Shown here: positions 38,052 through 57,191 of the stretch, one piece after another | Layout of the letters: each line of letters begins with the position of its first letter | Numbering within the stretch: the stretch's first letter is position 1 | Source: Treponema sp. | Lineage (GTDB): Bacteria > Spirochaetota > Spirochaetia > Treponematales > Breznakiellaceae | DNA length: 64,000 nucleotides | Direction of reading: 5' to 3' | Assembly (NCBI GenBank): GCA_031266775.1 | Contig: JAISAQ010000011.1 | Location: forward strand, 1 to 64,000 | The notes under the pieces: model-generated | The model's database searches: none | What the model saw: the letters and a program-made list of their open reading frames with translations, nothing else | Told to the model about the DNA's origin: nothing | Program-made: the position numbers and the translations under genes

Positions 38052-38117
38052 AACGGGAGTATACCACGGGGCGGCCCGGATTCCAATACGGAAAGGGGGA
38101 AGACGGTTAGAGGTTCT

Positions 38118-39644
38118 TCATTTTTCGGAAAATTCGCGGTATTCGGTTGGAAGCATGCCGGTCTCCTGCCTGAAAAGCCGGCTGAAATAGCCGGGATCGG
38201 AAAACCCCACCGCCCTTGCGACATCACAGACGTTAATGTTCTTCGCGTGTACAATAAGTTCTATGGCCTTCGCCACGCGCACCTGGGTAAGGTATTCGCC
38301 GGGGGAAACGCCCTTGTACTCCCTGAACAGCCTGCTTATATAGGAAGGCACAAAACCAAAACGTTTGGAAAGCGTTTGATTGGTAATGTGCCCCGCGTAA
38401 TGATCGCGGATGTATTTGTCTATCATCTTCATCATGTCCTCCGCCCTGCCCGCGGTTTCCCGATCCGAAAAGAGGCCGATGAAAATCTCAAGGAGCGCGT
38501 CGTGGAGTTTTTCCCATGAAGGGGACTGCGAAAAAGCCCTGTCAAAGGAATCTTCCCAGTCAACGCGGAGAGGGGCTCCCAGTTCCCTTCCGGCGGAAAG
38601 GTACTGGTATTTAACGATATTCAGTATGGCTTCCGACGGAAAGCCCTTTTCCCTCCAGTATCCGGCCATATCGCCGAGTACCAGATGAAGGGAAGGAATG
38701 TTTCCCGGCCGCAGCGCGCCTGAAAGTTTTTCCCCGTAAATGACGCACTCGTTGAAAAATTCCTGCATCGACGCGCCTGCGGAGAGGTCCTCCGTCAGGC
38801 AAATCCCCCTGCCGAATACCCCGTTGTGCCTCATCCGCCGCAGCAAATTTCCGGCAAGGCCGGCGGGTGTTTCCTTTTCCCGCAGTTCCCCGGCTGCAAC
38901 AGACACCGGACATTCTTTCCGGTTAACCGCCTCGTGGAATTTCATGATGAACTCATTGGCAAAGTCCCCGCCGGAACAGCCCAAAAGGCCGTACCAGTAC
39001 CGGTTCCCCCGCCGCTTTGACATCCATATCTTTCCGCCGTCAGAGGCCAGGGATTCGGCAATCCGGGCAAAGTCCTCCGTACAGGAAAAGGGATCGCCGT
39101 CATGTTCCCCGCCGGAAGAAAAAACAAAATTGCCGCAGTGTACGAGAAAAAGAACGTAACGGGAAAAACCCGGCGGGAACCTGCACGCGCTTCCGGCAAG
39201 CGCCGTGTCCAGGCTGAACGCCTTTCCGTCATGCTCCGGGGAAGGGGAAAGGGGATCTTCCCTTCCCTCAAGGAAAAGCCTTACTTCATTCAGCGAACGC
39301 TTAAGCTGCGCCTGGGTTACCGGCTTCAAAAGATAATCCCGCGCGCCGTAACGCAGGGCTTCCCGCGCGTAATTAAAATAATCAAAGCTCGTAACAATAA
39401 CGGACACGGTAGCAAGACGGTTTTCGCGTATGAACCTGAGGATCTCAAGCCCGTCCGCCCTGGGCATTCGTATGTCGGTTATCAAAAGATGGGGCCTGAG
39501 CTTTTCCACATAGTCCATGGCTTCCCTGCCGTTTACAGCCCTTGCGGCGACTTCCCAGCCGCCGCATTCCGTTTCAACCATGGAAGCGAGGTTTTTCAGA
39601 ATCAGCGTCTCATCTTCCGCTATTACTACCGTATACTTCCCCAT
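38118..39644 (-). CDS. Response regulator with AraC HTH; adjacent kinase is only a remnant
   Basis: YTVVIAEDETLILKNLASMVE...LLITDIRMPRADGLEIL; C-terminal AraC HTH; GGAGGGGAGATAC-ATG at 39644. Confidence 0.93.
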   Translation of the reverse strand: MGKYTVVIAEDETLILKNLASMVETECGGWEVAARAVNGREAMDYVEKLRPHLLITDIRMPRADGLEILRFIRENRLATVSVIVTSFDYFNYAREALRYGARDYLLKPVTQAQLKRSLNEVRLFLEGREDPLSPSPEHDGKAFSLDTALAGSACRFPPGFSRYVLFLVHCGNFVFSSGGEHDGDPFSCTEDFARIAESLASDGGKIWMSKRRGNRYWYGLLGCSGGDFANEFIMKFHEAVNRKECPVSVAAGELREKETPAGLAGNLLRRMRHNGVFGRGICLTEDLSAGASMQEFFNECVIYGEKLSGALRPGNIPSLHLVLGDMAGYWREKGFPSEAILNIVKYQYLSAGRELGAPLRVDWEDSFDRAFSQSPSWEKLHDALLEIFIGLFSDRETAGRAEDMMKMIDKYIRDHYAGHITNQTLSKRFGFVPSYISRLFREYKGVSPGEYLTQVRVAKAIELIVHAKNINVCDVARAVGFSDPGYFSRLFRQETGMLPTEYREFSEK

Positions 39645-39686
39645 GTATCTCCCCTCCAAACCGGACTATGGCGCCGCGGTACAAGG
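39639..39686. repeat. 48-bp perfect direct repeat, copy 1
   Basis: ccccatgtatctcccctccaaaccggactatggcgccgcggtacaagg, identical to 49441-49488. Confidence 0.95.
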
Positions 39687-39802
39687 GACCCGCTTTGGGC
39701 GATTATGTCCTCCATGCGTACAGAGCCCACTCCCGTTCCGTTATCAATGACTTCGGCCGTCCATTTTTTCCCTTCGGCAAAAATATTGACGCTTGCCGGA
39801 CA
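39645..39802 (-). pseudogene. Remnant of the 3' end of a histidine kinase gene
   Basis: Minus strand reads SVNIFAEGKKWTAEVIDNGTGVGSVRMEDIIAQSG, matching SINIFAEGEKWTAEVIDNGTGIDASRVEEIIAQSES of the kinase at 49427-51277; an internal deletion and frame break follow. Confidence 0.85.
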
Positions 39803-39886
39803 CTATTGAACAAGTCCATTGCCGGCCTATGCATGAATATAGTTGGCGAACAGCGCGTCGGGATTTTCCAGTGGGGTAAAGTCCAA

Positions 39887-40729
39887 TCAGGATTTTAATC
39901 CCGAAATATTCGCTCCGCTCAAGAGATACTTCTGTCCGAAGACATATAACAGCAGCGGAAAGATCATGGATATCATGATCCCCGCGATAACGACGGCGGG
40001 GCTGCCGGTACCCTGGTATCCTTTGAGAAGGTTCAGCCCCAGGGGGAGGGTCATAACCTCGGGCTTGTAAAGAAAAATAAGCGCGTTAAGAAAATCGTTC
40101 CAGGTTCCCAAAAAATGAAGCACCGCCACGACGGCCAGCGCGGGAACCGACATGGGAGCTATGACATGCAAGAAAATCCGGAGGTGGTTTGCGCCGTCCA
40201 TATAAGCGGCTTCGTCATAACTTGCGGGTATGGTTTTCATATATTGACGAGTCAGAAAAATACCCATGGGATAAATCAATGCCGGCAGAACAAGCGCCAA
40301 AGGAGTGTTGACCAGCCCTAAACGGGAAATCACCATAAACCGGGGAATCAGGGTTGACTGCGCCGGTATCATAATTCCCGAAAGAAAAAATAAAAAAACA
40401 ATATCCCGTCCGGGGAACTTTATGCGGGAGAACGAATAGGACGCCATGGCGGTTATAATAAGGGTTACGGTAACCGCCGTGACGGAGATAGTCAGGCTGT
40501 TGGTGATAAACCGGCCGTATGGAACCGAAAGCCATGCTGTGATGTAATTGTGCCACTGCCAGTCGTCGGGTAAAAACGCCGGCGGCAGTTTAAACGAATC
40601 CTGCGGCGCCCTGAGTGAGGTAGAAAACATCCAGAGGATAGGCATGAGCATTAAAAGTGAAAAAGCGGCCATAAAAAGGATAAATAAAAGTCTTTTTGTT
40701 CCGGCGGCAGTCTTGTTAACGTTTATCAT
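39887..40729 (-). CDS. Carbohydrate ABC transporter permease (MalG type)
   Basis: DEAAYMDGANHLRIFLHVIAPMSVPAL EAA loop. Confidence 0.92.
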   Translation of the reverse strand: MINVNKTAAGTKRLLFILFMAAFSLLMLMPILWMFSTSLRAPQDSFKLPPAFLPDDWQWHNYITAWLSVPYGRFITNSLTISVTAVTVTLIITAMASYSFSRIKFPGRDIVFLFFLSGIMIPAQSTLIPRFMVISRLGLVNTPLALVLPALIYPMGIFLTRQYMKTIPASYDEAAYMDGANHLRIFLHVIAPMSVPALAVVAVLHFLGTWNDFLNALIFLYKPEVMTLPLGLNLLKGYQGTGSPAVVIAGIMISMIFPLLLYVFGQKYLLSGANISGLKS

Positions 40730-40743
40730 TATTTATCCCCCGG

Positions 40744-41658
40744 CTATTCATAATCATAAACAACCCATTTGTTTTGAAGCCTGAACTGAATAAATGTGAT
40801 TATAAATATGATGAAAAAAAGACAAAAAGCTATAGCCGCGGCAAACCCCATGTCCTGTGACTGGAACGCGGTTTCGTAGATATAAAGTGAAATGGTGCGC
40901 GAGGAATTGCCCGGTCCTCCCTGGGTGATGAGGTATGGCTCCTCGAAAATCTGGAAACACCCGGCGAATTGCGTGATTGTGACAAAAAAGATGGTGGGAG
41001 ACAGCAACGGAAGCGTTACATGGAAAAAAACCTGAAATGAATTTGCGCCGTCGATGGACGCCGCCTCTTTATATGAAGCCGGTATGTTCTGCAGACCGAT
41101 AAGATAATACAAAAACGAGATGCCTACCCATTTCCAGATACTGAACATTGAGATTGCGGGGACAGACCATTTTGTCGAAACAAGCCAGGGAATTGAAGGG
41201 CCGCCCACACGGGACAGGAGCCAGTTGATGACGCCGTAATCCTTGTGCAGGAGGAAACCCCAGGCGATAGCGACCGCCGAGGTTGTAAGTATCGATGGAA
41301 AATAAATGCAGGTGCGATAGATATAGCGTAAAGACGATCTCGATTCGGCGTTCACCATGGACGCCAGAAAAAGGCTGAATATGGCGTGCAGAGGCACGAG
41401 TACCGCAACGTATTTAAAGGTGTTGCCGAATATTACCCAGCTTTTGGGTGTGGAAAAAAGCCTTAAGAAATTTTTAATGCCGATGAACTGCGGCGATATC
41501 AGGGCGTTGTATTTTGAAAAACTGAGAATAAGCGTCGCCACCACCGGACCGCCGAGAAATACGATAAACATGACGAGCGCGGGAGTCAGAAAAAGATACC
41601 CCGCCAAAGTGTTCATGACCGCTTTTTTACGCTGATAACGGTTCTTTTTATTTGACAA
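40744..41658 (-). CDS. Carbohydrate ABC transporter permease (MalF type)
   Basis: KEAASIDGANSFQVFFHVTLPLLSPTIF EAA loop. Confidence 0.92.
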   Translation of the reverse strand: MSNKKNRYQRKKAVMNTLAGYLFLTPALVMFIVFLGGPVVATLILSFSKYNALISPQFIGIKNFLRLFSTPKSWVIFGNTFKYVAVLVPLHAIFSLFLASMVNAESRSSLRYIYRTCIYFPSILTTSAVAIAWGFLLHKDYGVINWLLSRVGGPSIPWLVSTKWSVPAISMFSIWKWVGISFLYYLIGLQNIPASYKEAASIDGANSFQVFFHVTLPLLSPTIFFVTITQFAGCFQIFEEPYLITQGGPGNSSRTISLYIYETAFQSQDMGFAAAIAFCLFFIIFIITFIQFRLQNKWVVYDYE

Positions 41659-41711
41659 GTCTTATGCTCCGGAAAAAATCCGGGCCGCCCGATGACGGCC
41701 CGGTACTGGAA

Positions 41712-43028
41712 TCAGTATGCGTAATTGGTTATGGCGTCGTTAATTTCCCTCTCTGCCGCCGCCCAGGCTCTGGCATAGTCCGTGGTTTCACCGGCATAAA
41801 TGCTGGTTCTGTAGGACTTTATGATATTGGAAACATCCGCGAAGGCGGGCGGAGCCTGCGGCGAAGTGCAGCCTTTCACATATTTCATATCGTAGAAAAG
41901 CTCCCAGTTTTTGGGGACGCCGGATTTCCCGCAGATTTCCGCGAATATGGCCTGGTTGCAGGGGATGTTTCCGGTGGTGAGGTACTGGCGCAGGAATTCA
42001 GGCGTCGAAGTCCACACAGCAAGACCGGCGGCTTCATCAAAATGTTTGGTCTTGCTTATAACTACATAGCCGTCCGCACCGTAGGTCATCACTTCCTTTT
42101 TGAAATGGGGAATGGTGGTGATATACACGTCGGTAAAATTATTGTTGGCATAGGATGCCGTGGGCCACCTGCCGGCAAGGGTCATGGCCACGCGGCCGTC
42201 AACCAACAACTGGTTGTAGTCGTCGTTGGCCTGGGGAATGGGCGAGTACCCCCAAGTGTGGATCATATCGTAACAGAACTTGCTGAACTCGATCATCGCG
42301 GGAGTATTGAGATTCGCCTTTTTCATATCGGGCGCAAGAAAATCGACGCCCCAGGTTGCCGCAAGGGCGCTGTACATAAAATGATCATTAGTGAGATAAA
42401 AAGCGTACTGTTTTTCCCCATTTGCCTTTGTTTTGGTGAGTTTTCTGCACACCTCAAGGAATTCTTGCAGGCCCCAGGAACCCGCGGGAGGAAGCGGAAT
42501 TCCCGCCTCGGCAAACAGCTTTGTGTTACAGTGGACCACCACGTTGTTCTGCGACATGAGGGTCGAATAGATGCTGCCGTCCGCGCCCCGGAAAGGACCA
42601 ATCAGCTCTTCCGGCGTATTGGTAAAAATGTAGTCCTTCATGTCCGGTCTTGCGTTCAGGTACGGGTTAAGCGGCGCCGCCAGACCCGAAGAGACAAGTG
42701 TCGAGATGCCTTCCAGTGCCATAAGCACCACGTCAGGAGGATCCCCGGCGGCCACCATGGTGGATACGGATGTTACAAAGTCCGCCCACAAGTTGTTGAC
42801 CGAAATGTACGTTGCCTCGACTTTCACATTTGGGTTTGATTTTGTGTAGACCGAAAAAATTTCGTTCAGTCTTTCGATGCTGTTGGCCTCATTCATCATC
42901 TGGGCGACTTTAAGCGTTACCGCTCCGCCACTTCCGGCAGCCTTGTCGCCCCCTCCCCCCGCGAAGACCGGAGACGCCGCGATTGCCAACGCCAACAGTG
43001 CCGGCAACAAAATTTTCATCAGTCTCAT
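41712..43028 (-). CDS. Extracellular solute-binding protein, family 1
   Basis: Signal peptide MRLMKILLPALLALAIAASPVFA; GGAGGACAAGA-ATG; upstream of two permeases. Confidence 0.9.
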   Translation of the reverse strand: MRLMKILLPALLALAIAASPVFAGGGGDKAAGSGGAVTLKVAQMMNEANSIERLNEIFSVYTKSNPNVKVEATYISVNNLWADFVTSVSTMVAAGDPPDVVLMALEGISTLVSSGLAAPLNPYLNARPDMKDYIFTNTPEELIGPFRGADGSIYSTLMSQNNVVVHCNTKLFAEAGIPLPPAGSWGLQEFLEVCRKLTKTKANGEKQYAFYLTNDHFMYSALAATWGVDFLAPDMKKANLNTPAMIEFSKFCYDMIHTWGYSPIPQANDDYNQLLVDGRVAMTLAGRWPTASYANNNFTDVYITTIPHFKKEVMTYGADGYVVISKTKHFDEAAGLAVWTSTPEFLRQYLTTGNIPCNQAIFAEICGKSGVPKNWELFYDMKYVKGCTSPQAPPAFADVSNIIKSYRTSIYAGETTDYARAWAAAEREINDAITNYAY

Positions 43029-43058
43029 TCTTGTCCTCCTAAAAAATAGTGATTTCAA

Positions 43059-43087
43059 ATCATAAGCCCTATTTTGCAAAATGTCAA
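43059..43087 (-). promoter_or_regulatory. Sigma70-like promoter for the SBP-permease operon
   Basis: Minus strand TTGACA-17 bp-TATGAT. Confidence 0.7.
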
Positions 43088-43149
43088 TAAAATTTTGTAA
43101 TTTTTTTAGTAAAAAAGCTAAACTAACTATGATTTTTTAGTTTTTTTTA

Positions 43150-43193
43150 TTGACAAGCGGAAAAATACTCATTTATTATAGTACTGTTGTACT
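43150..43193 (+). promoter_or_regulatory. Sigma70-like promoter plus palindromic operator for the catabolic operon
   Basis: TTGACA (43150) -18- TATTAT (43174-43179); AGTAC-TGTT-GTACT at 43180-43193 at the expected start site. Confidence 0.6.
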
Positions 43194-43194
43194 G

Positions 43195-43233
43195 GAGCTT
43201 GTTCCAAAACCCGGTTGGTTTTGAAACAAGCTC
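43195..43233. repeat. 39-bp hairpin element in the operon leader; exact reverse complement of 2284-2322
   Basis: GAGCTTGTTCCAAAACC-CGGTT-GGTTTTGAAACAAGCTC. Confidence 0.85.
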
Positions 43234-43263
43234 ACTGATTTACAGCGTTATCAGGTGGTATTC

Positions 43264-44343
43264 ATGGAAACAGCCGAAAAAACCTATAATATAGATGAAA
43301 AAGACTTGGCGCGTCTTGGCGCTGTTGTTTTTGAGGCATACGGTGTTCCCCGGGAAGACGCCGAGATACTTTCCCTTTCGCTGGCGGAAGCGGATATCAG
43401 GGGGATCAAGAGCCATGGCATGGTTCGGGTGCCTATCTATATTGATCAGTTTGTAAACGGAAAATTTTCAAAAGAAACTAAACTTACCGTTAAAAAAGAA
43501 ACGCCCGTATCCCTGGTTCTGGACGGCAATAATGGTCCCGGGGCTGTTGTCAGCGCCAGGGCTGTTATGATGACCAGAAAAAAAGCGGAACAGTCGGGTT
43601 TCGCTTTTGCCGCCGTACACGGGAGCAATCATTTTGGAACCGCTGGATACTGGTCCGAAATGCTGGCCGGGGATGACATGATAGGTTTCGCGTCAACCAA
43701 TAGCATCCCGATTGTGGCTGCCCCCGCGGGGACGGGACGCGGGATAGGCAGCAATCCCTTTTCGTATACCATACCGGCAAATAAATACGCGTCTGTATGC
43801 CTTGATGTCTCCGTGGGCGTAATGGCCCAGGGTAAAATTTACGAATACGCCCGCTTGGGAAAGCCACTCCCCGAAAACGCCTGGCTTGGGCCTGACGGCC
43901 AGGTTACCAGGGATCCCAAACAATGGGACCCGATGGATTACGTTATGATACCTTTCGGGATGCACAAGGGTTTTGGCTTGGGCGTGGTCATGGAAATGCT
44001 TACCAGCGGTCTGGCGGGCGCGGAATTTCACCGGCAGTACCAGGGTCTTAACGCCAAAATGACGGAAAACAGCCACTGTTTCTGGGCGATGAGGATTGAC
44101 GCTTTTACGGATGTGAAAAAATACCGGGACCAGGTGGACGCTTATATCGAATATCTTCACTCCCTGCCCGTAACGAATCCCGGTGACAAAGTATATTATC
44201 CGGGCGAAATTGAAGCCGTGCTTAAGGCAAAATACCTCCGGGAAGGCGTGCCGGTAGCCGCGAAAGTGGTGGAAGATATGCTGGGTTTGGCCGCCGGAGC
44301 CTCAGCGGATGTCTCGTTTATAAAGTCTAAATACCATATTTAA
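43264..44343 (+). CDS. Ldh-family (malate/L-lactate dehydrogenase-like) oxidoreductase
   Basis: EDAEILSLSLAEADIRGIKSHGMVRVPIYIDQF, FAAVHGSNHFGTAGYWSEML, GIGSNPFSYTIPA. Confidence 0.92.
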   Translation: METAEKTYNIDEKDLARLGAVVFEAYGVPREDAEILSLSLAEADIRGIKSHGMVRVPIYIDQFVNGKFSKETKLTVKKETPVSLVLDGNNGPGAVVSARAVMMTRKKAEQSGFAFAAVHGSNHFGTAGYWSEMLAGDDMIGFASTNSIPIVAAPAGTGRGIGSNPFSYTIPANKYASVCLDVSVGVMAQGKIYEYARLGKPLPENAWLGPDGQVTRDPKQWDPMDYVMIPFGMHKGFGLGVVMEMLTSGLAGAEFHRQYQGLNAKMTENSHCFWAMRIDAFTDVKKYRDQVDAYIEYLHSLPVTNPGDKVYYPGEIEAVLKAKYLREGVPVAAKVVEDMLGLAAGASADVSFIKSKYHI

Positions 44344-44379
44344 GCGGAAAAGCGATCTGAATTTTCGGGGAGAAAGAAG

Positions 44380-45267
44380 ATGAACAGAAATTACCGGGAA
44401 ATGACGGAAAACACTATCTTTATCAGAAGCAGAAAGGCTTGGCCGGATCGATTTAAGGACAAGGTTGCTATCGTGACGGGAGGCAGCCAGGGAATCGGTA
44501 AAGCCATCGTCCAGGAGCTGTGCCGGGAAGGGGCAAAAGTCAGTTTTACCGGCAGGGGAGAAGCGGAGGGCAAAAAAACCGCCGGGGAACTGCTGGACGC
44601 CGGTTTCGATGCGCTTTACATCCAGGCGGATATGATAAAGGAAGACGACTGCAAGAGGGTGGTGGAGAACACGGCCGCCAAATGGGGCAAAGTCAACCAT
44701 CTGGTAAACAATGCGTATCGCTTTATTGACAAAGGCGCCTCCGCCGGGGAAGAGGACTGGTACAACATTTTGTTTACCGGTCCGGTGGCTTACGCCCGGA
44801 TGATGAAATACTGTGAGCCGTACATGAAAAAGGAAGGCGGCGGATCTATTGTCAACATTTCGAGCATCGCAGCTCATGTGGCCTTCCCCAACCGCTGGAC
44901 CTATAACGCGTCCAAAGGCGCGGTCACTATGCTCACCATGTGCGCGGCCATAGACTTCGCGGCCGAAAATATCCGGGTAAACACGGTGACGCCCGGCACG
45001 GTGTGGACCCGCGAAACCCTGCGCGGGGTGTGGGACCTTGACGCCGGCGAAAAGGAATGGTATTTCCACGAACTCAACAGGCGGCAGATGATGCAGCGAT
45101 GCGGCGAACCGGTGGAAATCGCCGGCGCCGTTCTTTACATGCTGTCTGACGATGCGTCCTATACGACAGGCCACGAACTGGTGGCTGACGGTGGATATAT
45201 CAATATGGGCCAGCAGGGCGTCAAGGAAACGGCGCTGATACAGGACGCGGAGAGTGGAAAAAAATGA
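44380..45267 (+). CDS. SDR-family oxidoreductase
   Basis: VAIVTGGSQGIGKAIVQELCREGAKV, NNAYRF, YNASKGAVTMLT. Confidence 0.93.
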   Translation: MNRNYREMTENTIFIRSRKAWPDRFKDKVAIVTGGSQGIGKAIVQELCREGAKVSFTGRGEAEGKKTAGELLDAGFDALYIQADMIKEDDCKRVVENTAAKWGKVNHLVNNAYRFIDKGASAGEEDWYNILFTGPVAYARMMKYCEPYMKKEGGGSIVNISSIAAHVAFPNRWTYNASKGAVTMLTMCAAIDFAAENIRVNTVTPGTVWTRETLRGVWDLDAGEKEWYFHELNRRQMMQRCGEPVEIAGAVLYMLSDDASYTTGHELVADGGYINMGQQGVKETALIQDAESGKK

Positions 45268-46358
45268 AAAACCCGGAATTGGAAGAAAAGCTCTCACGAG
45301 TAAGAGCTTTTATGGAAAAAGAAAAATACGATGCCGTTTTGTTCCGCAGAAACGACTCCTTCTCGTGGCTGACCTGCGGCGGGTGCGCGTTTGTCGATAA
45401 AGGGGCCGAACTGGCCAATGCCAGTCTCCTGGTGACTCTGGCAAAGGTTACGGCACTCTACAATTCGAGCGAAAAATTCAGAATACCCGAAGAAGAGCTG
45501 GCGGATCTGCCTTTTGAGATGGAGGATTATACCTGGAACCAGGACCCCGGCGTTTCCATGGGGAAGTATCTTGACGGGAAAAGAACCGCTTCCGATACCG
45601 CCGGCTTTGGCGCCGAGTACCGCGGGGAAGATCTCTCCAGGCTGTTCTATGTTCTTACTCCTGAAGAAATGGAACGTTACCGGAAAATAGGCGTCCAAAG
45701 TACCGTGTTGCTTGAAGACGCGGCGAGACAGGTACGGCCGGGGCAGACCGAGTACCAGATAGCCGGGCGCACAACTGCCGCGCTGATGGCCGCGGGATTC
45801 CAGGTCCCGGTGTGCCTTGTGGCGTCGGATGAACGGCTCCTGCGTTACCGCCATCCTGTTCCGGCGGCCAGGACCGTCGAACGCATGGTGATGGTCGCGG
45901 TAACGGTCCGTAAATACGGCCTCAATGTTTCGATAAGCAGAATAGTAAGCTTTGGCCCCCTGGACGAACTGACCAGGAGTAAACAGAATGCCGTGGCGTT
46001 CATCGATGCCCACCTTATTTCCGCAACGATACCGGGCGCGGTGACCGGCGAAATAGTAAGATCCGCCGGGAAGCTCTACAAAGACGCCGGATTTGGCGGC
46101 GACTACGAGTTGCACCACCAGGGCGGCGCCATGGGTTATGCCGTCAGGTATTATTGTGCCCCGGAAAGTCAAAAGGACAAGGTGGAGGATCGCATGGCTT
46201 TTTCGTGGAATCCGACCATTGCGGGCGTAAAAAGCGAAGATACCCTGATTGTGACGGACGGGAAGCCGGCGGTCATTTCGAAAGGCGGAAGCTGGCCGCA
46301 GATTCCGGTACATATTGGAAATAAAACCGTCGAAAGACCTGACATTCTTGTTTTTTAG
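45264..46358 (+). CDS. M24-fold (Xaa-Pro peptidase/creatinase-like) protein with degenerate metal site
   Basis: Creatinase-type N-domain (EKLSRVRAFMEKEKYDAVLFRRNDSFSWLT) and pita-bread domain with HHQGGAMGYAVRYY and KSEDTLIVT. Confidence 0.8.
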   Translation: MKNPELEEKLSRVRAFMEKEKYDAVLFRRNDSFSWLTCGGCAFVDKGAELANASLLVTLAKVTALYNSSEKFRIPEEELADLPFEMEDYTWNQDPGVSMGKYLDGKRTASDTAGFGAEYRGEDLSRLFYVLTPEEMERYRKIGVQSTVLLEDAARQVRPGQTEYQIAGRTTAALMAAGFQVPVCLVASDERLLRYRHPVPAARTVERMVMVAVTVRKYGLNVSISRIVSFGPLDELTRSKQNAVAFIDAHLISATIPGAVTGEIVRSAGKLYKDAGFGGDYELHHQGGAMGYAVRYYCAPESQKDKVEDRMAFSWNPTIAGVKSEDTLIVTDGKPAVISKGGSWPQIPVHIGNKTVERPDILVF

Positions 46359-46370
46359 CGGAGATAATTA

Positions 46371-47285
46371 ATGAAGATAATTGACGCCCATGTTCATCTG
46401 ATTGAATTTATGGCCGGGTTTAACAGACGGGGTGAAATGCGGCCTATCGGCGGAGGCAAGGCTAGATGGGCTTCCGGAGAAGTATGGAATCTCGTTCCGC
46501 CCGGATTGGGGGAATACGGCTTTACCGGCGAGAAGATGCTGGAAATAATGGATGCCCACGGTGTGGAAAAAGCGGTTCTTGTGCAGGGAAACGCTTCGGG
46601 GTATCAGAACGAATACTCTTACGAGATGATGAAAAAGTATCCCGGAAGATTCACCGCGGCGTGTACTTTCGATCCGTTCATGCTTGACGCGGAAAAAATA
46701 AAAAACCGTTTTTTCTATGAGATGCGTTTTCCAATCGTAAAGTTCGAAGTCGGAACCGACTGCGGGCTTATGAGCTATCACCGGCCTTTTCCGCTTGACG
46801 GAGAACCGATGAGTCCCATTTATGACGAGATAGAGAAGAACGGGCAGGTACTGGTGATGGACGTGGGGCGCTTTACCGACGCCAGCCACCAGCATGGCGC
46901 CCTGGTGAATATCGCCAAAGGGCATCCGGCGATGAAGTTTGTCATCTGCCATATACTTCTGCCTTCGAAAGGCGACGATGCGGAACTGGAACGCCAGATG
47001 AAGGCCCTTGATTTTGACAATGTCTGGTTCGATCTCGCCGCGCTTCCCCTGCTGCTCCAGGGCGAGCCGAATCCTGACGCTCTTGTGCTTCACTTTATCG
47101 AAATCGCCAGAAAAATTGCCGGACCAAAGCGGCTTATGTGGGGAAGCGATGTGCCTTCGACCCTTCAGTATAACAGTTACGCCGATCTTATCAACATGAT
47201 TGTCAGGTCGGGCATCTTTACCGACAGCGAATTTGAGGATGTGTTTTACAACAACGCCGCGCTGGTATATCCGTTTGGAAAATAA
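46371..47285 (+). CDS. Amidohydrolase family 2 (lactonase/decarboxylase-like TIM barrel)
   Basis: MKIIDAHVHLIE, EIMDAHGVEKAVLVQG, RLMWGSDVPSTLQY. Confidence 0.88.
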   Translation: MKIIDAHVHLIEFMAGFNRRGEMRPIGGGKARWASGEVWNLVPPGLGEYGFTGEKMLEIMDAHGVEKAVLVQGNASGYQNEYSYEMMKKYPGRFTAACTFDPFMLDAEKIKNRFFYEMRFPIVKFEVGTDCGLMSYHRPFPLDGEPMSPIYDEIEKNGQVLVMDVGRFTDASHQHGALVNIAKGHPAMKFVICHILLPSKGDDAELERQMKALDFDNVWFDLAALPLLLQGEPNPDALVLHFIEIARKIAGPKRLMWGSDVPSTLQYNSYADLINMIVRSGIFTDSEFEDVFYNNAALVYPFGK

Positions 47286-47327
47286 ACGCAGACGATGATA
47301 AAAAGGAACCAGAGGAGGATGCAATTA

Positions 47328-49391
47328 ATGAAAAATAAACAGCCCATAACCCGTGTCTTTTTTGACACCCAGTTTCCGGAATGGAACGACAAAAAAGTCG
47401 CTTCTCGTTTTAATCCTGATGAAGTTGCCGGGATTTTCGCCGAGTCAGGCGTCGAATCGGCGGTGGTTTTCGCCAAATGTCAGTACGGCAATTTTTATTA
47501 TGATACCAAAAGGGGCCATAAACACGCGGGGCTCGGAAACCTCGATCTGCTGCGGTCGATGACGGAAAAGTTCCACCGTCATTCGATAGAAGTACTGGCC
47601 TATTATTCCACAGCCTGGGACGAGTTGCAGGGGACGCTCCATCCGGACTGGCTCACCGAGGATTTTTCCGGCAAAAGGACCCGCGGGGCGTTCCGCTGGA
47701 AAACCCTCTGTATCAATTCGCCGTACCGGGCGCTGGTTAAGGAGGACCTTTGCGAGATTGCGGCGGAAACTGATGTCGATGGTTTCTGGATAGACATGAC
47801 CATCATCGGGAAGGATCGTTGTTATTGCCCGTATTGCGACAAGAAATTCAGGGCGCTCTACGGAAAAGGCATTCGGGAAGCCCGGGGCGCCGGCATGGAT
47901 ATAGAACTGGCAGAATTCCGTTACAATTACATCGAAGAATTCTATGATGAGATTTATAAGGAACTGAGGCGTATCAAACCGTCCCTTAATATCACCAATA
48001 ATTACTGGGGCTATCCGTATCAGTCCAGAAACATGGGGAGCCGGGCCGTGGGGGCGCTTAAACAGGCGGATTTTATCACCGGCGAGGCGTATGTGGATTG
48101 GACCGGTCTTGAGGCGCCGTCGTTCTTTTCGCGATTTCTCTCCGGCGCGGCCGGAGGCCGGCCCTTTGAAGCCCTGGTAGGGCGATTCATCAATACCTGG
48201 GACTTTACCAGGAAAACTCCCGATCAGATGTTCTTTGAGGCGATGACTATTTTCTCCCTCGGAGGAACGGTTACCATCGATGATGAACCGTTTTATGACG
48301 GAACGATAGACCTTACGGTGTACCGGACCCTGATAGGCCCCGCGTTCCGGGCGATCAAAAAACTGTCCCATACAATCCGCGGGGAAAGCCTTAAATTCGC
48401 CGCCATTTTCCATTCCCAGGCGACAAAAGATCTTATTCCCGAAGACGCGCCATCTCCTTTCATCAGAAACATATCAGGCGCGTATAAACTGCTCCAGGAA
48501 CGGCACATCCCTGTGAATTTTGTTTTTGATGAGAGCCTTACGGAAGAAGAAATCAGACGCTACAGGGTCATTTTGCTTCCGGGCGCCGCGGCCCTCGGTG
48601 AAAAAACGCGGAAAATACTGGAAGACTATGTGCGAAACGGCGGCGTTGTTACGGGATTCGGGCGGAACGCCTTTTTTGAAAACCTGTTCTCAGGCAGCGT
48701 CGTATACAAAGGTCTTTCGGAATACAGCCTTTCGTATATTCCCCTGGAAGGCGAAAAAACTCTCGTCAGGGGCGCCTACTGCCGTTATGTGCAATCAGGC
48801 GCTGGATGCTCCGGCTGGGAAACTGGCGCGCCCGTCATCGACCCTATTGCCGAAACAAGCGTCGAGGTCTTTTTTCACAACAACCTTCCGTCTCCGTATC
48901 TGGAAAGCAGCGTACCCTCATATTACATCGTTCCCCTGGGCAAAGGATGGGTCATCCAGTACAACCAGCCGATATCGGAGAGTTACGCGAAACAGCGCGG
49001 CTTTGCCGTCAGGGACGCCGTCATCGCGCAGATCCTGCGCCGCACGGGAAAGCCGGATTTCTGGATTGACGCCCCGGCCAGGGTGGATACGGTCGCGTAT
49101 CACGATAAGGAGGCGCGCCGTTTTTACATACACCTGTCCGCCTTCGCCGCCGAGGCAAGTCTTGCGTGCGGCCTGTTTGACACCACGAATGGTAATTTTG
49201 AACGGCCTTACGCGATGATGGAAAACCGGGACCCGGTGAAGGAAATAACCGTCCACCTGGCGGCAGAAAAAGAAATAAAATCCGTCATTTCACTTTACGA
49301 AAAGAATGAACCGCGCTGGGAACAAACGGCGGAAACGCTCGTCATCCGTACACCCTTGGAACTATGGGACGTCATTGAGGCAGAATATTAA
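47328..49391 (+). CDS. GHL6-like putative glycoside hydrolase with beta-galactosidase trimerisation-like domain
   Basis: FFDTQFPEWNDKKVASRFNPDEVAGIFAESGVESAVVFAKCQYGNFYY, VDGFWIDMT, CYCPYCDKKF; RRYRVILLPGAAALGEKTRKILEDYVRNGG. Confidence 0.8.
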   Translation: MKNKQPITRVFFDTQFPEWNDKKVASRFNPDEVAGIFAESGVESAVVFAKCQYGNFYYDTKRGHKHAGLGNLDLLRSMTEKFHRHSIEVLAYYSTAWDELQGTLHPDWLTEDFSGKRTRGAFRWKTLCINSPYRALVKEDLCEIAAETDVDGFWIDMTIIGKDRCYCPYCDKKFRALYGKGIREARGAGMDIELAEFRYNYIEEFYDEIYKELRRIKPSLNITNNYWGYPYQSRNMGSRAVGALKQADFITGEAYVDWTGLEAPSFFSRFLSGAAGGRPFEALVGRFINTWDFTRKTPDQMFFEAMTIFSLGGTVTIDDEPFYDGTIDLTVYRTLIGPAFRAIKKLSHTIRGESLKFAAIFHSQATKDLIPEDAPSPFIRNISGAYKLLQERHIPVNFVFDESLTEEEIRRYRVILLPGAAALGEKTRKILEDYVRNGGVVTGFGRNAFFENLFSGSVVYKGLSEYSLSYIPLEGEKTLVRGAYCRYVQSGAGCSGWETGAPVIDPIAETSVEVFFHNNLPSPYLESSVPSYYIVPLGKGWVIQYNQPISESYAKQRGFAVRDAVIAQILRRTGKPDFWIDAPARVDTVAYHDKEARRFYIHLSAFAAEASLACGLFDTTNGNFERPYAMMENRDPVKEITVHLAAEKEIKSVISLYEKNEPRWEQTAETLVIRTPLELWDVIEAEY

Positions 49392-49426
49392 GAATTTAAT
49401 TTGTTCAATATATGTATCGGAGCATT

Positions 49427-51277
49427 TCAAGATACTTTGTCCCCATGTATCTCCCCTCCAAACCGGACTATGGCGCCGCGGTACAAGGATTTTGCCGAAA
49501 AATGGATATTGTTGTTGTAAAGGAGGCGCAGCCTGGCAAGCGAATTCAAAAGGCCGAGGCCTCCCGGATGCAGCCCGCCTATTCCCCTGAGGGCATCCTC
49601 AAAAAGGGATTCGCTTTGGGCGATTATTTCTTCTACCCGCGAGGCGTCGATTCCAGTCCCGTTATCGATAACCTCGGCCGTCCATTTTTCCCCTTCGGCA
49701 AAAATATTGATGCTCACCTGCCAGGGAAACGGCGCGTTGACAAAGGCGTGCCTGAAGCAGTTTTCCACGACGGTCTGCAGCATAAGCCGGGGAATGGGGA
49801 AGTCGCCGCAGATTTCGTCCATGTGAACGGAAAAAATAAATTCATCGGAATAGCGTATCCTCATAAGATTGAGGTAATTGCAGGTATACTCAAGTTCCCC
49901 GCGTATGGTGCTGCTGTCGCGGTCAAATTTCATGACATAGCGCAGCATGTTTGAAAGCAATTCGCATATATCGGCAATCTGGGGAACGCCGTTTTCATAG
50001 GCAATCGCGTTGATAGTGCTGATGCAGTTATACATAAAATGCGGGGAAATCTGGGACTGCAGCGCCAGATAATAGGCTTCCCGTTCGTTCAGCTTTGATT
50101 GCAGCGTCTGATTCATCGCTTCGCGCACCCGCGCAATCATTTCGTTGTAAAACTGCTGAAGCTGCCGTATATCCCCGGTGGAAGAATGAAAATCGACGTT
50201 CATTTCCAGATTGTCGCGGGTAACATTCCGCATGGCCCCGATGATCTCTTCCAGGGGCCTTGTAAGGTAACGGCTGACAAGGAGGTTAAGGCTCACGGCG
50301 ACTATCATGAGAAACAAAACGGCAATCAGCATGATCCCAAGGTACACCATGAAAAAGCCCGAACCGTACTTCTGCATGACAAGAACGCCGTAGTCAAGGC
50401 CTTCTATATGCTTCAAACTTGCCAGATAGCCCCTCCCCGCGGCCCCCCTGTGAAAACCGTTTTTGAAGCCGTTCCGGTATGCGCCAAGGATGAATTCCGC
50501 GTCGGAAGTAAAGGGATCTTTTACCGCCGGATAATTGATGATCGATTTTTCCCCGTCAAAAAGAAAAACGCGGATTGTTTCATCGGAACTAACGCAGATG
50601 CTTTCTATTTCGGATCTCTTTTTCAAAACCTGAAGTATTCCCATGTCCCTTCCGGTAGGGGGATCGTACAGCCTCCGCGACAGTGAAAAATACTCGGAAG
50701 CGGCGCCGGACCCTGTTACCCAGTACGAACGGTGGGGGCCCAGAAGCAGGGGGGAAGGCGGATTCAGGGCGAGCCTTCTTTTTACGCCGGCCATTACCCC
50801 CTGTTCGGCGTCGCTGCGTATTGTCCCCCAGTCGGTGCTGCTTTGGGCGGTTGTTATAAAGGCCCTGTCGCTGTAAATGTTGACGACAGTATTGGAAATA
50901 TCAAGCCCCAGTATGACAAGCAGATTCTGAAAAACAACGCTGAGTTTGTCCCTGTTCTGATCAAAATAATTCCGGCCGCCCCCGTAACCGGCAATGCTTT
51001 CGCCGATGATGTCCATGATGCCCTGGCTGAAGAAAATCCTCGTGCCGATGCGGTCCATCTGCCGGAATTTCTCCCTTATCTGGCTGGCGACATTTTCCGA
51101 GTAGGCGTCAAGGCCCGCCTCCGCCCCGGCGCTGACGCTGCCTGAAACATACACGCCTATCATGATAAAGGCAATGGTGATGATAAAAATAAAAAGGAGC
51201 GAATACACAAGAAAAATGCGTCTGTGAAGACTTGAGGGCATACAGAAAATGATACACCCCGGAAAGGGCTTTGTCAA
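49427..51277 (-). CDS. YesM-like sensor histidine kinase without an adjacent response regulator
   Basis: QISPHFMYNCISTINAIAYENG, VIDNGTGI, GGLGLLNSLARLRLLY. Confidence 0.92.
   Translation of the reverse strand: MTKPFPGCIIFCMPSSLHRRIFLVYSLLFIFIITIAFIMIGVYVSGSVSAGAEAGLDAYSENVASQIREKFRQMDRIGTRIFFSQGIMDIIGESIAGYGGGRNYFDQNRDKLSVVFQNLLVILGLDISNTVVNIYSDRAFITTAQSSTDWGTIRSDAEQGVMAGVKRRLALNPPSPLLLGPHRSYWVTGSGAASEYFSLSRRLYDPPTGRDMGILQVLKKRSEIESICVSSDETIRVFLFDGEKSIINYPAVKDPFTSDAEFILGAYRNGFKNGFHRGAAGRGYLASLKHIEGLDYGVLVMQKYGSGFFMVYLGIMLIAVLFLMIVAVSLNLLVSRYLTRPLEEIIGAMRNVTRDNLEMNVDFHSSTGDIRQLQQFYNEMIARVREAMNQTLQSKLNEREAYYLALQSQISPHFMYNCISTINAIAYENGVPQIADICELLSNMLRYVMKFDRDSSTIRGELEYTCNYLNLMRIRYSDEFIFSVHMDEICGDFPIPRLMLQTVVENCFRHAFVNAPFPWQVSINIFAEGEKWTAEVIDNGTGIDASRVEEIIAQSESLFEDALRGIGGLHPGGLGLLNSLARLRLLYNNNIHFSAKSLYRGAIVRFGGEIHGDKVS
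49441..49488. repeat. 48-bp perfect direct repeat, copy 2 (kinase 3' end)
   Basis: Identical to 39639-39686. Confidence 0.95.
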
Positions 51278-51403
51278 AATAAATCATTGGAACCGGTTTT
51301 GCCCGCTTCGAGTTTAAAATTTTACCAGAGAAATTTTAATTTTTTCACTTTTCCGCACGGGGAAGCTCCCGTATAATGAGGTATCTTTTACGGAGGAATA
51401 TTT

Positions 51404-52696
51404 ATGAAGAAAACGTTTGTGGTTTTGATTTCCCTGTCCGTTTTCATGTTGCTTTCCTGCGGGAACAGCGGCGGGACGGGCGCGCAGAACGAGAAGATTA
51501 CCCTGAGCGTGTACTGCTCAAAGGACTTGTGGAGGGATATATACCTTCCTGTGGCGCAAAAAATCGAGGAAGATCACGGCATCGCCATTGATCTTGTAAC
51601 TCTGCCCAATGAACAGCTGGAGCCTGTGATCAGCGTAAAGCTCGCCACCAACGATCCCCCCGATCTTTTCACTACAAACACACCCCAAGCGGTGGACCAG
51701 TACAACGCCACCCAGATGTGCCTTCCCCTCGACGGAGAGGCGTGGGTCTCCCGTCTTGCGGCCCCCGATCTTCTGCGGTACAAGGGAGACGGAAAGATCT
51801 ACGCCATGCCTGTCCGCGAGTCTTCAACTTTCTTCGGCGGCGCTTACTACAACAAGGCGCTGATGGAACAGTGCGGCATATACAACCCGGAGCCCAAAAC
51901 ATTCAGGGAATTTCTTGATATTCTTGAAAAAATAAAACAGGCCGGGCACACCCCCATTTACATGACCGACAAGGACGGCTGGTGCACCCAGGTATGGACC
52001 ACCCTCGGCTGGGGAGTAGCCCTTGACGCCAAAAAGGACACCGTGTACGAACAGCTCAATTCCAACCGGATTAAATTCGCCGCCATTCCCGAACTCGTAA
52101 CGGTGCTCCGGCAGATGGGAGACCTCTACAAGGCGGGCTACGTGAACGAGGATCATATGTCCCAGACCTACGACACCGCCAAGGTTGCGGTAGGCGAAGG
52201 CCGGGCCGTCATGGCCATTCAGGGGGAATGGTTCGCCACGGATCTGAACGTGGTGTACCCCGATGTCGAACTGGGTTCCTTTGCCATTCCCTTCCTTGAC
52301 AAAATGATGATAGGCACCGGCGCCTATGTCTCAGGCTGGTATGTGCCCAAAGGGAAAAATTCCCCAAAGGCGCTGGAATTCCTCAACTACTGGAGCCAGA
52401 GCGAATACCAGAATATAATCTTCCGGGAAACCCCCGGATTCCCCGGCTTTGTTGACGCCGACGGCGGCGACGTGCTTCCCGGCATAAAGAACATAGTGGA
52501 AAAATACATAGACACCGGGAAATACACGCCCGAATTCGACGCGTATTTTGATTCGGCCCGGCCCATCATGAACGACTACCTCTTCGGCAACATCCAGGAA
52601 GTCGCGGCCGGTTCCAAGACCGCGGAGGAAGCCCTTGCCGACTGGGACAGCAAATTTTCCCAGTTCATGAAAGACAAGGAAGTACCCGGCTTCTAG
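51404..52696 (+). CDS. Extracellular solute-binding protein, family 1 (lipoprotein)
   Basis: MKKTFVVLISLSVFMLLSCGNSGG lipobox; SBP_bac_1-like; followed by two permeases. Confidence 0.92.
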   Translation: MKKTFVVLISLSVFMLLSCGNSGGTGAQNEKITLSVYCSKDLWRDIYLPVAQKIEEDHGIAIDLVTLPNEQLEPVISVKLATNDPPDLFTTNTPQAVDQYNATQMCLPLDGEAWVSRLAAPDLLRYKGDGKIYAMPVRESSTFFGGAYYNKALMEQCGIYNPEPKTFREFLDILEKIKQAGHTPIYMTDKDGWCTQVWTTLGWGVALDAKKDTVYEQLNSNRIKFAAIPELVTVLRQMGDLYKAGYVNEDHMSQTYDTAKVAVGEGRAVMAIQGEWFATDLNVVYPDVELGSFAIPFLDKMMIGTGAYVSGWYVPKGKNSPKALEFLNYWSQSEYQNIIFRETPGFPGFVDADGGDVLPGIKNIVEKYIDTGKYTPEFDAYFDSARPIMNDYLFGNIQEVAAGSKTAEEALADWDSKFSQFMKDKEVPGF

Positions 52697-52792
52697 TCAC
52701 ACATCGGGGAAGCTGTCCGGGCGGGTTTTGAAATTCGAGGACGCTTCCCGGGGAACCGGGAAGATCCCGGCTCCCGGCCTTTGGGGGAACAC

Positions 52793-53689
52793 ATGCGGAA
52801 AACCGGAACCGGGGGAAACGGCAGTTTTATACGGCAGGCCTATCCCTATTATCTTTTGCTGCCCGCGATTATTCTCTTTACGGTGTTCTTTATCGTCCCC
52901 GCCGCAGGCGGCGTTTTTATCTCCCTTACCAACTGGGACATCACAAGGCCCGCAATCCGCTTTAACGGCATTGACAACTACATATACATGTTCGGCGACG
53001 CGGATTTCATCCTTGCCATATCGAACACCCTTGCCTTCATGGCCTCCATCGTTATTCTGCGGAACACCATTGCCATACTGCTTGCGCTGGCCCTTACTTC
53101 CAACCTGAAAACATCGACATACCTCCGCACCGCGTTTTACATTCCGTCGGTACTAAGCTACGTCGTAGTGGGGATCATGTTTACCGCCCTTTTTCAGATG
53201 AACGGCACGGTAAACCAGGGGCTCCGCCTTTTGGGTTTTGCCGTAAAGCATGAATGGCTTGCCAGCCAAAAGACCGCGCTCCTTACGGTAATCGCCGAAG
53301 ACGTATGGAAATGGACGGGCTTTCACATGATCATCTACATCGCGGGGATCAACGCCATTCCCTCCGATTTTTACGAATCGGCCCGCATCGACGGCGCGTC
53401 TTACCCCCAGCGCTTCTTTCACATTACCCTGCCCCTTCTTGTCCCGGCCCTGACCGTCAACGTAACGCAGTCTGTCATAGGCGGCTTCCGCGTGTTTGAG
53501 CAGGTGCTGACCCTTACCAAGGGAGGACCCGGCCACAAGTCGACCGTCATAGGGATGATGATATACGAATATTTCGGCAGGGGTTTCTACGGCAGATCAA
53601 CGGCAATGAGCATGTTTCTTTCGGTTATTGTCATCATTGTTACCGTTCTCATACGAAGGGCGTTCAGAAAAGGGGAAATGGAATTATGA
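52793..53689 (+). CDS. Carbohydrate ABC transporter permease (MalF type)
   Basis: ESARIDGASYPQRFFHITLPLLVPAL EAA loop; start is 52793 or 52781. Confidence 0.9.
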   Translation: MRKTGTGGNGSFIRQAYPYYLLLPAIILFTVFFIVPAAGGVFISLTNWDITRPAIRFNGIDNYIYMFGDADFILAISNTLAFMASIVILRNTIAILLALALTSNLKTSTYLRTAFYIPSVLSYVVVGIMFTALFQMNGTVNQGLRLLGFAVKHEWLASQKTALLTVIAEDVWKWTGFHMIIYIAGINAIPSDFYESARIDGASYPQRFFHITLPLLVPALTVNVTQSVIGGFRVFEQVLTLTKGGPGHKSTVIGMMIYEYFGRGFYGRSTAMSMFLSVIVIIVTVLIRRAFRKGEMEL

Positions 53690-54519
53690 TGAACGGTAAA
53701 GGCAGATACAGGCCCTGTGATTTTGTCCTTGAAATTATCATGCTGGCGGCAAGCCTCGTTGTCGTGGTTCCGCTGCTCCTCGCGCTGTTCGGCTCGTTCA
53801 AGTCTCCGGCGGAAGCCCTTCATTACAACATACTTCCCCCGTCACGGTGGCATCCTGAAAATTATTACGAAGTAGTGCGGAAAAGCAATATTCTTGCCGC
53901 CTTCAAAAACAGCGTGATCATAACGGCGGCGGTTGCAAGCGTCACCATCATCATCTGTTCCCTTGCGTCGTTTATCATCGCCCGCCGGGGAGACAGGATC
54001 TGCCGTTTTCTTGCTTCCTATTTTAACCTTGCCCTCATAGTGCCCATGGCAATAGTGCCGACCATACTGCTGCTTCAGCGCATGCATTTAATGAACACCA
54101 AAACCGGCATGATCTTCGTGATGATAGCGTCGAATATTTCCTGGGGCATGTTCATCATGACCAGTTTCATGCACACCATTCCCCGCGAAATGGACGAGGC
54201 CGCCATTATAGACGGCTGCGGGCCCGTGCGGCTGTTTTACTTGGTGATCTTCCCCCTGCTTAAACCCGTAATAATGACGAACATTGTCATCATAGGCATG
54301 GGCACATGGAACGATCTGCAGACGCCCCTTTACATGCTTAACTCAAGCAGAAACCTCACCATGCCCCTTACCGTGTACAATTTCATGGGCCGCTATTTTT
54401 CCCAGTGGAACCTGATCTTCGCCGACCTTGTGCTGGTAGGGCTTCCCATGGTTTTAATGTACGCTTTTCTTCAGAAATATATTGTATCAGGCATTACCGC
54501 GGGCGCGGTAAAAGGCTGA
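53686..54519 (+). CDS. Carbohydrate ABC transporter permease (MalG type)
   Basis: DEAAIIDGCGPVRLFYLVIFPLLKPVIM EAA loop; overlaps the upstream gene by 4 nt. Confidence 0.92.
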   Translation: MMNGKGRYRPCDFVLEIIMLAASLVVVVPLLLALFGSFKSPAEALHYNILPPSRWHPENYYEVVRKSNILAAFKNSVIITAAVASVTIIICSLASFIIARRGDRICRFLASYFNLALIVPMAIVPTILLLQRMHLMNTKTGMIFVMIASNISWGMFIMTSFMHTIPREMDEAAIIDGCGPVRLFYLVIFPLLKPVIMTNIVIIGMGTWNDLQTPLYMLNSSRNLTMPLTVYNFMGRYFSQWNLIFADLVLVGLPMVLMYAFLQKYIVSGITAGAVKG

Positions 54520-54530
54520 AAGGAGACGGC

Positions 54531-57182
54531 ATGAACGAATTTATTCCCGACACTCACAAAGGCGTCCGCTCTGTGTTAAGCTGTTCCGGCGCGGGGTTTC
54601 CCGGCATGCTTGCGGAGGCTCCCTTTTTTTCATGGAAGACCTGCGGCCTTGAAGGAAGGCAGTCGGCGTACCGCCTTATCGTCTCATCGAGCCGGGAAGC
54701 CGCCTCCCGGGGAACGGGCGATCTCTGGGATTCGCTGTGGGTACAGTCCCCGGACGACACGGGGATTCCCTACGGGGGAAGCGCCCTTGAAAGCAACCGC
54801 GACTATTACGCGGCGGTCAGCGTAAAAGGCGGCGCGGAAAACGGGATTTCACTGAGTGAACCCGTCCCCTTTTCAACGGGCTTCCTCGACCCTTCGGAAT
54901 GGAAGGCGCCGTGGCTCTGCGCGCCTGTAGCCTCCGATGTAAATCCCATGTTCCGCAGGGACTTCAGCCTTCAAGGCGCTCCTACAAGGGCCCGCCTTTT
55001 TATCTGCGGGCTTGGCTATTACGAGGCGTATATAAACGGTACAAAAGCGGGGGACATGATGCTTGCCCCAAGCTGGACCGATTACGGCAAACGGGTGTGC
55101 TATGCCGCCCATGACGTTACCGCCCTGCTCAAAAAAGACAACGCCATAGGCGTCATGCTCGGTTCAGGATGGTACAGTAACGCATACTGTACGCCCCGCC
55201 CTGTTTTTACCGCGCAGCTGATGCTGGAATACGAGGACGGGAGCGCCGAAACAATTCTTTCGGCCGCCCATAACGGATGGTATGTGCACAACGACGGCCC
55301 CATGCGGAAGGCCAGCATATATATTGGGGAACTGTACGACGCCCGCCTTGAAAAGCCAGGCTGGGCCGAATACGGATTCGGCATGAAGGCCCCTTCGTCA
55401 GGCGCATGGAAGCCGGCGATAGAAACGGAGCCTCCCGCCGGGAAGATGACGCCCATGACCGAAGAACCCATCCGCGCGATAGGGGAAATCGAACCGGTAT
55501 CGATCAACGAAATAAACGGCATGGCGATCATCGACTTCGGACAGAACATCGCGGGGGTCCTGCGTCTTGCCATGCACGCTCCCCGCGATACCCGCGTCCG
55601 CATACGGTATTCCGAACTCTTGTGGAAAGACGGAAGCCTCAACACCGGCAATCTGCGCACGGCCCAGGAAACCGACGAATATATCTGCCGGGGCGGCGGC
55701 GAGGAATACATGCCCCGCTTTACCTACCATGGTTTCCGTTATGCCGGGATATGCGGCATTTCCGGCCTCAAAAAAGAAGATGTCAGGGCGGTAGTGCTGA
55801 GAAACGATGTCGCGGTAAGGGGCCGTTTCCGCTGTTCAAGCGATCTCCTTAACAGCATACAGCGGATCTGCGTGTGGACCGAAAGCAACAACCTCCACGG
55901 GGTGCCCACCGATTGTCCCCAGCGGGATGAAAGGCTGGGGTGGCTTAACGACCTTACCGTGCGGGCCGAAGAAGCGGTTTACAATTTTGACATGAGCCGC
56001 TTCTACAGGAAATTCCTCATGGATATTGCCGACGGGCAGGGGCCCGGAACAGGGGCCATTACCGACACGGCGCCCTACCGGAATTTCGGGGGACAGCCCG
56101 CCGACGCGGTGTGTTCCAGCTACCTCGTGCTGCCCTGGCTCCTCTATATGCACCACGGAGACAGGGAGGCGTTAAGGCGGCATTACGGGGGGCTTGCCGC
56201 GTGGACGCGTTACCTTGAAAGCCAGTGCGAAGACGGCATTGTAAACTACAGCTACTACGGCGACTGGGCGGCGCCCATCGCGGGCAACGACGCGGAAAGC
56301 TACGGTTCGGGCGCGGTATCGGTTATTACCCCCGGCCTTCTGATGTCGACAGGATTCCTCTATATGAACGCCGCCCTCATGAAAAAAATCGCGGGCGTTT
56401 TGGGAAAGGTGGACGATGTCAAACACTACGAAGATCTCGCGGCCTCTACAAAAGACGCGCTTAACAGGACGTTCCTTAACCGTGAAAAAGGATATTACGG
56501 GACAGGCAGCCAGGCGGCGAATGTTTTCATGTTGTACCTGGGCATAGTGCCTGGAGAACTGAGGAACGCCGTTATGCAAAACCTCGTAAAGGACATTCGT
56601 GATCACGGCACCCACCTGACCACGGGCAACCTTTGTTCCCGCTATATCTTTGACGTCCTTGCGGACGGCGGGCAGATCGATCTGGCCTTTGAACTCGCAG
56701 GCCAAAGGACCTACCCAAGCTGGGGCTACATGCTTGACAACGGCGCCACTACTACCTGGGAAAGGTGGGAATACGTGGATTCAGGCCCCCTTCTCGGCAT
56801 GGCTTCCCACGATCATCCCATGTACGCGACAATAAGCGGCTGGTTTTATTCGTACCTTCTGGGCATACGCCCCCTTGAGGCCGGATTCAAAACCTTCGCC
56901 TTCAAGCCGCATATTCCCGTGGCGCTGCAAAGCGCGGAAGGCGCGGTTAAAACCGTCAAAGGGGACATCGAAGCCTCATGGACACAGGAAGGGGGACGTG
57001 TTACAATGAAAGTCGCCGTTCCCTTTAACTCGCTCTGCCGCGCCGTGCTGCCTGAGGACGGCCAGGTTACCGTAAACGGCGTTACAAGGGAAACGCAAAA
57101 ACAAAACGGCGAGGCTTTTATTATGCTTGAAAGCGGCCGTTACGAAATAACGGCCATGTTTAGTAACCCGGTTGGTTACTAA
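54531..57182 (+). CDS. Alpha-L-rhamnosidase, GH78
   Basis: GLGYYEAYINGTKAGDMMLAPSWTDYGKRVCYAAHDVT, VPTDCPQRDERLGWLNDL, TTTWERWE; ATG 54531 with upstream GGAGA. Confidence 0.94.
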   Translation: MNEFIPDTHKGVRSVLSCSGAGFPGMLAEAPFFSWKTCGLEGRQSAYRLIVSSSREAASRGTGDLWDSLWVQSPDDTGIPYGGSALESNRDYYAAVSVKGGAENGISLSEPVPFSTGFLDPSEWKAPWLCAPVASDVNPMFRRDFSLQGAPTRARLFICGLGYYEAYINGTKAGDMMLAPSWTDYGKRVCYAAHDVTALLKKDNAIGVMLGSGWYSNAYCTPRPVFTAQLMLEYEDGSAETILSAAHNGWYVHNDGPMRKASIYIGELYDARLEKPGWAEYGFGMKAPSSGAWKPAIETEPPAGKMTPMTEEPIRAIGEIEPVSINEINGMAIIDFGQNIAGVLRLAMHAPRDTRVRIRYSELLWKDGSLNTGNLRTAQETDEYICRGGGEEYMPRFTYHGFRYAGICGISGLKKEDVRAVVLRNDVAVRGRFRCSSDLLNSIQRICVWTESNNLHGVPTDCPQRDERLGWLNDLTVRAEEAVYNFDMSRFYRKFLMDIADGQGPGTGAITDTAPYRNFGGQPADAVCSSYLVLPWLLYMHHGDREALRRHYGGLAAWTRYLESQCEDGIVNYSYYGDWAAPIAGNDAESYGSGAVSVITPGLLMSTGFLYMNAALMKKIAGVLGKVDDVKHYEDLAASTKDALNRTFLNREKGYYGTGSQAANVFMLYLGIVPGELRNAVMQNLVKDIRDHGTHLTTGNLCSRYIFDVLADGGQIDLAFELAGQRTYPSWGYMLDNGATTTWERWEYVDSGPLLGMASHDHPMYATISGWFYSYLLGIRPLEAGFKTFAFKPHIPVALQSAEGAVKTVKGDIEASWTQEGGRVTMKVAVPFNSLCRAVLPEDGQVTVNGVTRETQKQNGEAFIMLESGRYEITAMFSNPVGY

Positions 57183-57189: not shown

Positions 57190-57191
57190 TT

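Follow-up and report, generated by a model that had tools for sequence, protein, structure and literature searches.

A probable split of a YesM/YesN-type two-component operon by a foreign catabolic block in Treponema sp.

Kinase, regulator and the block between them

The DNA examined in the present study is a window of 64,000 nucleotides from a Treponema sp. assembly (GCA_031266775.1; contig JAISAQ010000011.1, positions 1 to 64,000, forward strand), in which genes for a sensor kinase and a response regulator lie ~10 kb apart on the minus strand. The kinase (K; 49427..51241, 604 aa) has the HAMP, His_kinase and HATPase_c domains of YesM-type sensor kinases, all scoring above cut-off (26.6 bits, 72.5 bits for PF06580, and 27.3 bits, respectively), with the HATPase_c match stopping at residue 593; a Cache-like sensor domain is matched at sub-threshold level only (19.8 against a cut-off of 45). 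A previous reading of the same DNA, made from its letters alone (the sequence-only reading), had drawn this gene from 49427 to 51277. Its 3′ end stands, but the start is better placed at the ATG at 51241 than at the TTG at 51277, judging from the congener proteins, which begin there (MPSSLH). The regulator (R; 38118..39644, 508 aa) has the receiver (PF00072, residues 6-118, 80.2 bits) and C-terminal AraC-type HTH (PF12833, residues 425-504, 78.1 bits) of YesN-type response regulators. At E<=1e-40 the genome has one copy of it, and among the genomes of the family it was found in this genus only; matches in phages were of a generic kind, and none of them reached 80% query coverage.

Between the two genes lies a block of 9753 bp (X; 39687..49439). 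On its minus strand are genes for two ABC permeases (39887..40729 and 40744..41658, both PF00528) and an ABC solute-binding protein (41712..43031, PF13416/PF01547). The plus strand carries an Ldh_2-family dehydrogenase (43264..44343, PF02615), a short-chain dehydrogenase (44380..45267, PF13561), an M24-family protein (45264..46358, PF00557), an amidohydrolase (46371..47285, PF04909) and a GHL6-type putative glycoside hydrolase (47295..49391, PF14871), the last of which is convergent with the kinase gene. All annotated genes of X are thus transport or enzyme genes, with no recombinase or integrase among them. No inverted-repeat pair is reported at the ends of the block, which are marked by a duplication of 49 bp instead of the short one of a transposon or integrative element. 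Protein searches of the family and order and a scan of genome contigs revealed no close source for X: for the GHL6 protein, 199 other genomes of the family gave no match exceeding 27%; the best relatives of the binding protein among 393 further genomes of the order were 30-38% identical; and the contig scan recovered nothing but a GHL6 homolog (49% identical) on a short contig of a Clostridia MAG. RNA families and tRNAs were absent from the window.

A 39-bp palindromic repeat, GAGCTTGTTCCAAAACCCGGTTGGTTTTGAAACAAGCTC, occurs at 43195-43233, within the divergent promoter region of the block, as well as at 2284-2322 and 32676-32711. Dozens of copies are spread over all four of the genomes from this genus in our collection, and the repeat has no Rfam match. 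Its presence in the promoter region suggests either that X has resided in the genus for a while or that the element was acquired there.

Upstream of K, and divergent from it, is the native partner operon of the kinase and regulator (51404..57182, plus strand), encoding a binding protein, two permeases and a GH78-type alpha-L-rhamnosidase (54504-57182). The kinase and binding-protein genes are also divergent in two of the congeners (G001 and G003, below). The locus resembles YesM/YesN systems located beside ABC sugar transporters in the domain make-up of K and R, in the overlap of their orthologs in G003, and in the neighbouring binding protein, permeases and glycosidase. It differs from them in that K and R are 9.8 kb apart with a second transporter/catabolic block between them. 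The literature search found nothing directly relevant on split YesM/YesN operons.

The direct repeat and a kinase sliver at its edge

Block X is flanked by a perfect direct repeat, with copies in the same orientation at 39638-39686 and 49440-49488 (49 bp, 100% identical), which is the longest exact repeat of the 64-kb window. The sequence-only reading had rightly recognised the copies as identical and co-oriented but was one base short in giving their length as 48 bp. It had also taken the repeat for the kinase 3′ end carrying the Shine-Dalgarno sequence and ATG of the regulator, and this was borne out: read on the minus strand, the repeat encodes K residues 585-601 (of 604), the terminal portion of the ATPase domain, and the same bases hold the Shine-Dalgarno sequence and the ATG (39644) of R. 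In the copy next to R, the kinase frame runs on to the ancestral kinase C-terminus, GEIHGEVYGSNSGR followed by a stop codon. Present-day K ends in GGEIHG-DKVS, its final codons being supplied by cassette bases, and the ancestral protein evidently ended in GGEIHG-EVYGSNSGR, with the kinase frame passing through the start of R. The 3.1-Mb assembly contains these two copies in total and no further one when up to 3 mismatches are allowed; by its length and identity, the repeat is not a chance event.

The sequence-only reading had overlooked a sliver derived from another, diverged kinase (K′), ~113 bp long with sharp ends (39687..39799, minus strand), which sits between the last permease gene of X and the repeat. 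Over 108 aligned bases, the sliver matches the resident K at 86 positions, the G001 kinase at 88 and the G003 kinase at 67, while K and the G001 kinase share 99 bases over the same span. The sliver is ~20% diverged from K, with 13 of the 22 differences at third codon positions (mostly synonymous), and its frame is open, which indicates that the source kinase of K′ was under selection. It is joined out of frame to the kinase tail of the repeat through a 4-bp microhomology, CCTT (39683-39686), where ~115 bp are skipped and the frame changes. An extension of the sliver upstream of 39799 was considered and rejected, its score being reached by 20 of 500 shuffles for the local kinase region and by 39 of 200 for the full kinase gene. 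Both copies of the tail look resident in origin, because they are identical to each other and because all 25 bp of the tail present in the G001 contig match exactly (25/25), an outcome expected in ~0.4% of cases at 20% divergence under simple independence. Viral contigs yielded no match to the tail.

Related genomes and the origin of the split

Our collection includes four genomes of the genus, comprising the present one and three congeners, G001, G002 and G003. The sequence-only reading had named synteny with relatives as a check on its proposal, and G003 supplies it: orthologs of K (67% identical) and R (65%) are adjacent there, overlap by 32 nt and have no cassette between them. G003 is the only uninterrupted congener and is a draft, 62% complete. 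Joining K to R in silico across the repeat produces, as had been foreseen, a kinase lying directly upstream of the regulator and overlapping it, with a 35-nt overlap and a kinase of 609 aa (605 aa in G003). The adjacency typical of YesM/YesN pairs is thus present in G003 and lacking at the present locus. The G001 kinase is 94% identical to K, but its contig ends 25 bp into the repeat and no ortholog of R was found in that genome, which consequently speaks neither for nor against the split.

A genus-wide baseline was obtained by comparing the positions of PF06580 kinase and receiver genes in the four genomes, with adjacency judged from coordinates. There are 19 such kinases, two of which are at contig ends, leaving 17 that are informative. 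Sixteen of the 17 have a receiver gene close by (just downstream in 10, just upstream in five, and divergent next door in one), the sole exception being K. This baseline, together with the overlapping pair in G003, argues that the separation of K and R is the derived state. The existence of a natural overlapping pair without the cassette therefore suggests that K and R once formed one operon into which the 9753-bp block was inserted. With no cassette orthologs in the genomes searched, this upholds the earlier proposal of an operon split by a transporter/catabolic cassette. We consider it quite probable that K and R are the halves of one ancestral YesM/YesN-type operon, split at their overlap by the foreign block X with duplication of 49 bp, and that both proteins are probably still made and still partners.

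In the ancestral operon, the ATG of R would have lain inside the end of K, and X, a foreign catabolic and transport block, would have entered at this overlap. Through the accompanying duplication of 49 bp, K would have retained the terminal portion of its ATPase domain, and R its ribosome-binding site and start; an insertion without it would have deprived either K of that portion or R of its start. The diverged kinase sliver, its mostly synonymous changes and the 4-bp microhomology joint point to insertion by recombination with related foreign DNA rather than by a transposon. X was probably brought in by recombination with DNA of a relative carrying a diverged copy of the kinase, of which the 113-bp sliver would be a remnant. 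The left end of X shows the sliver and the CCTT joint; for comparison with the right joint (49439/49440), no donor was found. Homology-assisted illegitimate recombination, template switching, or a single crossover with a circle in which the tail was already present could each have produced this layout. In experiments on E. coli, the most frequent result in one study was an integration that duplicated the homologous segment (PMC3240628). Homology-facilitated illegitimate recombination and single-crossover integration (PMC3240628; PMC5361080) share with the present case a foreign segment that is partly homologous to the target, a joint formed at short homology and a duplicated target, whereas here there is no known donor molecule and the event is deduced from its end product alone. 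The locus also resembles the variable segments described between direct repeats (PMC2884548) in having a strain-variable block, direct-repeat flanks and an otherwise shared site; the repeats described there are mostly <30 bp, while the present one is 49 bp and positioned such that neither of the interrupted genes is broken. The event is a clear case of a known and fairly ordinary kind of bacterial genome rearrangement.

Several other accounts of the locus have to be weighed against this one. One has R as the original partner of K′ in an operon of X (ABC-K′-R′), with the own regulator of K lost and K and R derived from different pairs; it would suit the position of the sliver immediately upstream of R, its matching orientation and former coding constraint, and the sensible operon order that ABC genes, kinase and regulator would make. 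We regard this as unlikely, given that the tail beside R is identical to that of K and not to the ~20%-different sliver, that 25/25 bp match the native kinase of G001, and that identity to the G003 orthologs is similar for R and K (65% and 67%). The opposite polarity, with K and R separate at first and brought together in G003 by a deletion between the repeats, is scarcely credible. Recombination between direct repeats can delete an intervening segment, as is generally known (PMC2884548), but a single repeat holding both the end of a kinase and the start of a regulator makes sense only as the duplicate of an overlapping pair; moreover, no cassette orthologs occur in the genomes searched and adjacency is the rule for such gene pairs in the genus.

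An assembly error or strain mixture would leave the true chromosome with kinase, tail and R intact and X elsewhere or circular, the contig having taken the wrong exit from the 49-bp repeat. The genome is indeed a draft in 108 contigs, and the contig with the G001 kinase breaks off within this repeat, as at a fork in an assembly graph. Such a graph would, however, need all four joins between flanks and repeat to be present in the reads, requiring X to carry the tail at both ends (as a circle or tandem array), and ordinary reads are longer than a 49-bp repeat. As the contig is also 70.5 kb long with flanks that agree with G001 and G002, we judge an artefact improbable. It is very unlikely, lastly, that X is able to leave as a circle via the 49-bp repeats and so restore the K-R overlap, although the G001 contig break inside the repeat could be a trace of mixed excision states. 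Were it true, cells would switch their two-component system from coupled to uncoupled and back.

Regulation after the split and the larger island

Following the proposed insertion of X into the K-R operon, the two proteins would be made from separate transcripts, that of K now running convergently into the GHL6 gene of X. R lies downstream of the ABC operon of X on the same strand and may be read from its promoter, as the sequence-only reading had suggested, because the minus strand shows no terminator-like site from 39887 to 39644 and because a promoter-like site lies at 43087-43059. This is the best such site upstream of R in the direction of the ABC operon (11/12 matches), in a scan that yields about as many sites as shuffled sequence. 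A terminator-like hairpin is predicted at 41703-41680, between the binding-protein and permease genes of X. A regulator-binding motif shared by the native and X promoters was sought and rejected: the AT-rich element AAATTTTAATTTTTTC, conserved upstream of the kinase and the native rhamnosidase-transporter operon, does not occur at the promoter of X even with 3 mismatches allowed, and its matches in the window are near chance. The case shows that an overlapping two-component operon can be split with both genes unbroken when a duplicated stretch serves both, and it provides a natural test of partnership between a kinase and a regulator made from separate transcripts and of the takeover of R by an adjoining transporter operon.

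K, R, the rhamnosidase operon and X together form a larger island (38087..57320), for which G002 shows an empty site. One G002 contig (C121) matches 32758-38086 and 57321-58235 with ~137 bp between them, so that a PGA_cap gene adjoins an RpiB-like gene. In G001, the part from the kinase to RpiB is present, and the PGA_cap side runs into a HicA/HicB toxin-antitoxin pair, the sequence past PGA_cap (contig C27, 2996-3653) diverging near the place where R begins in the present genome. The HicA/HicB pair and the empty site in G002 mark this point as a variable insertion site. No repeats beyond an 11-bp near match were found at the ends of the larger island.

Other features of the window were also recorded. 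A 45-bp element that contains a palindrome (GTTGTTCAATAACT...AGTTATTGAACAAC) is present at 2383-2427 and at 57235-57279 (96% identical), the latter copy just outside the rhamnosidase gene and near the right end of the island. A GH31-family glycoside hydrolase is encoded at 34466-36463, with a second copy, 76% identical at the DNA level, on another contig of the same genome (C60). The window further contains a second YesM-type kinase (26767-26997, minus strand) and, divergent from it, a receiver-domain gene (28308-28640, plus strand).
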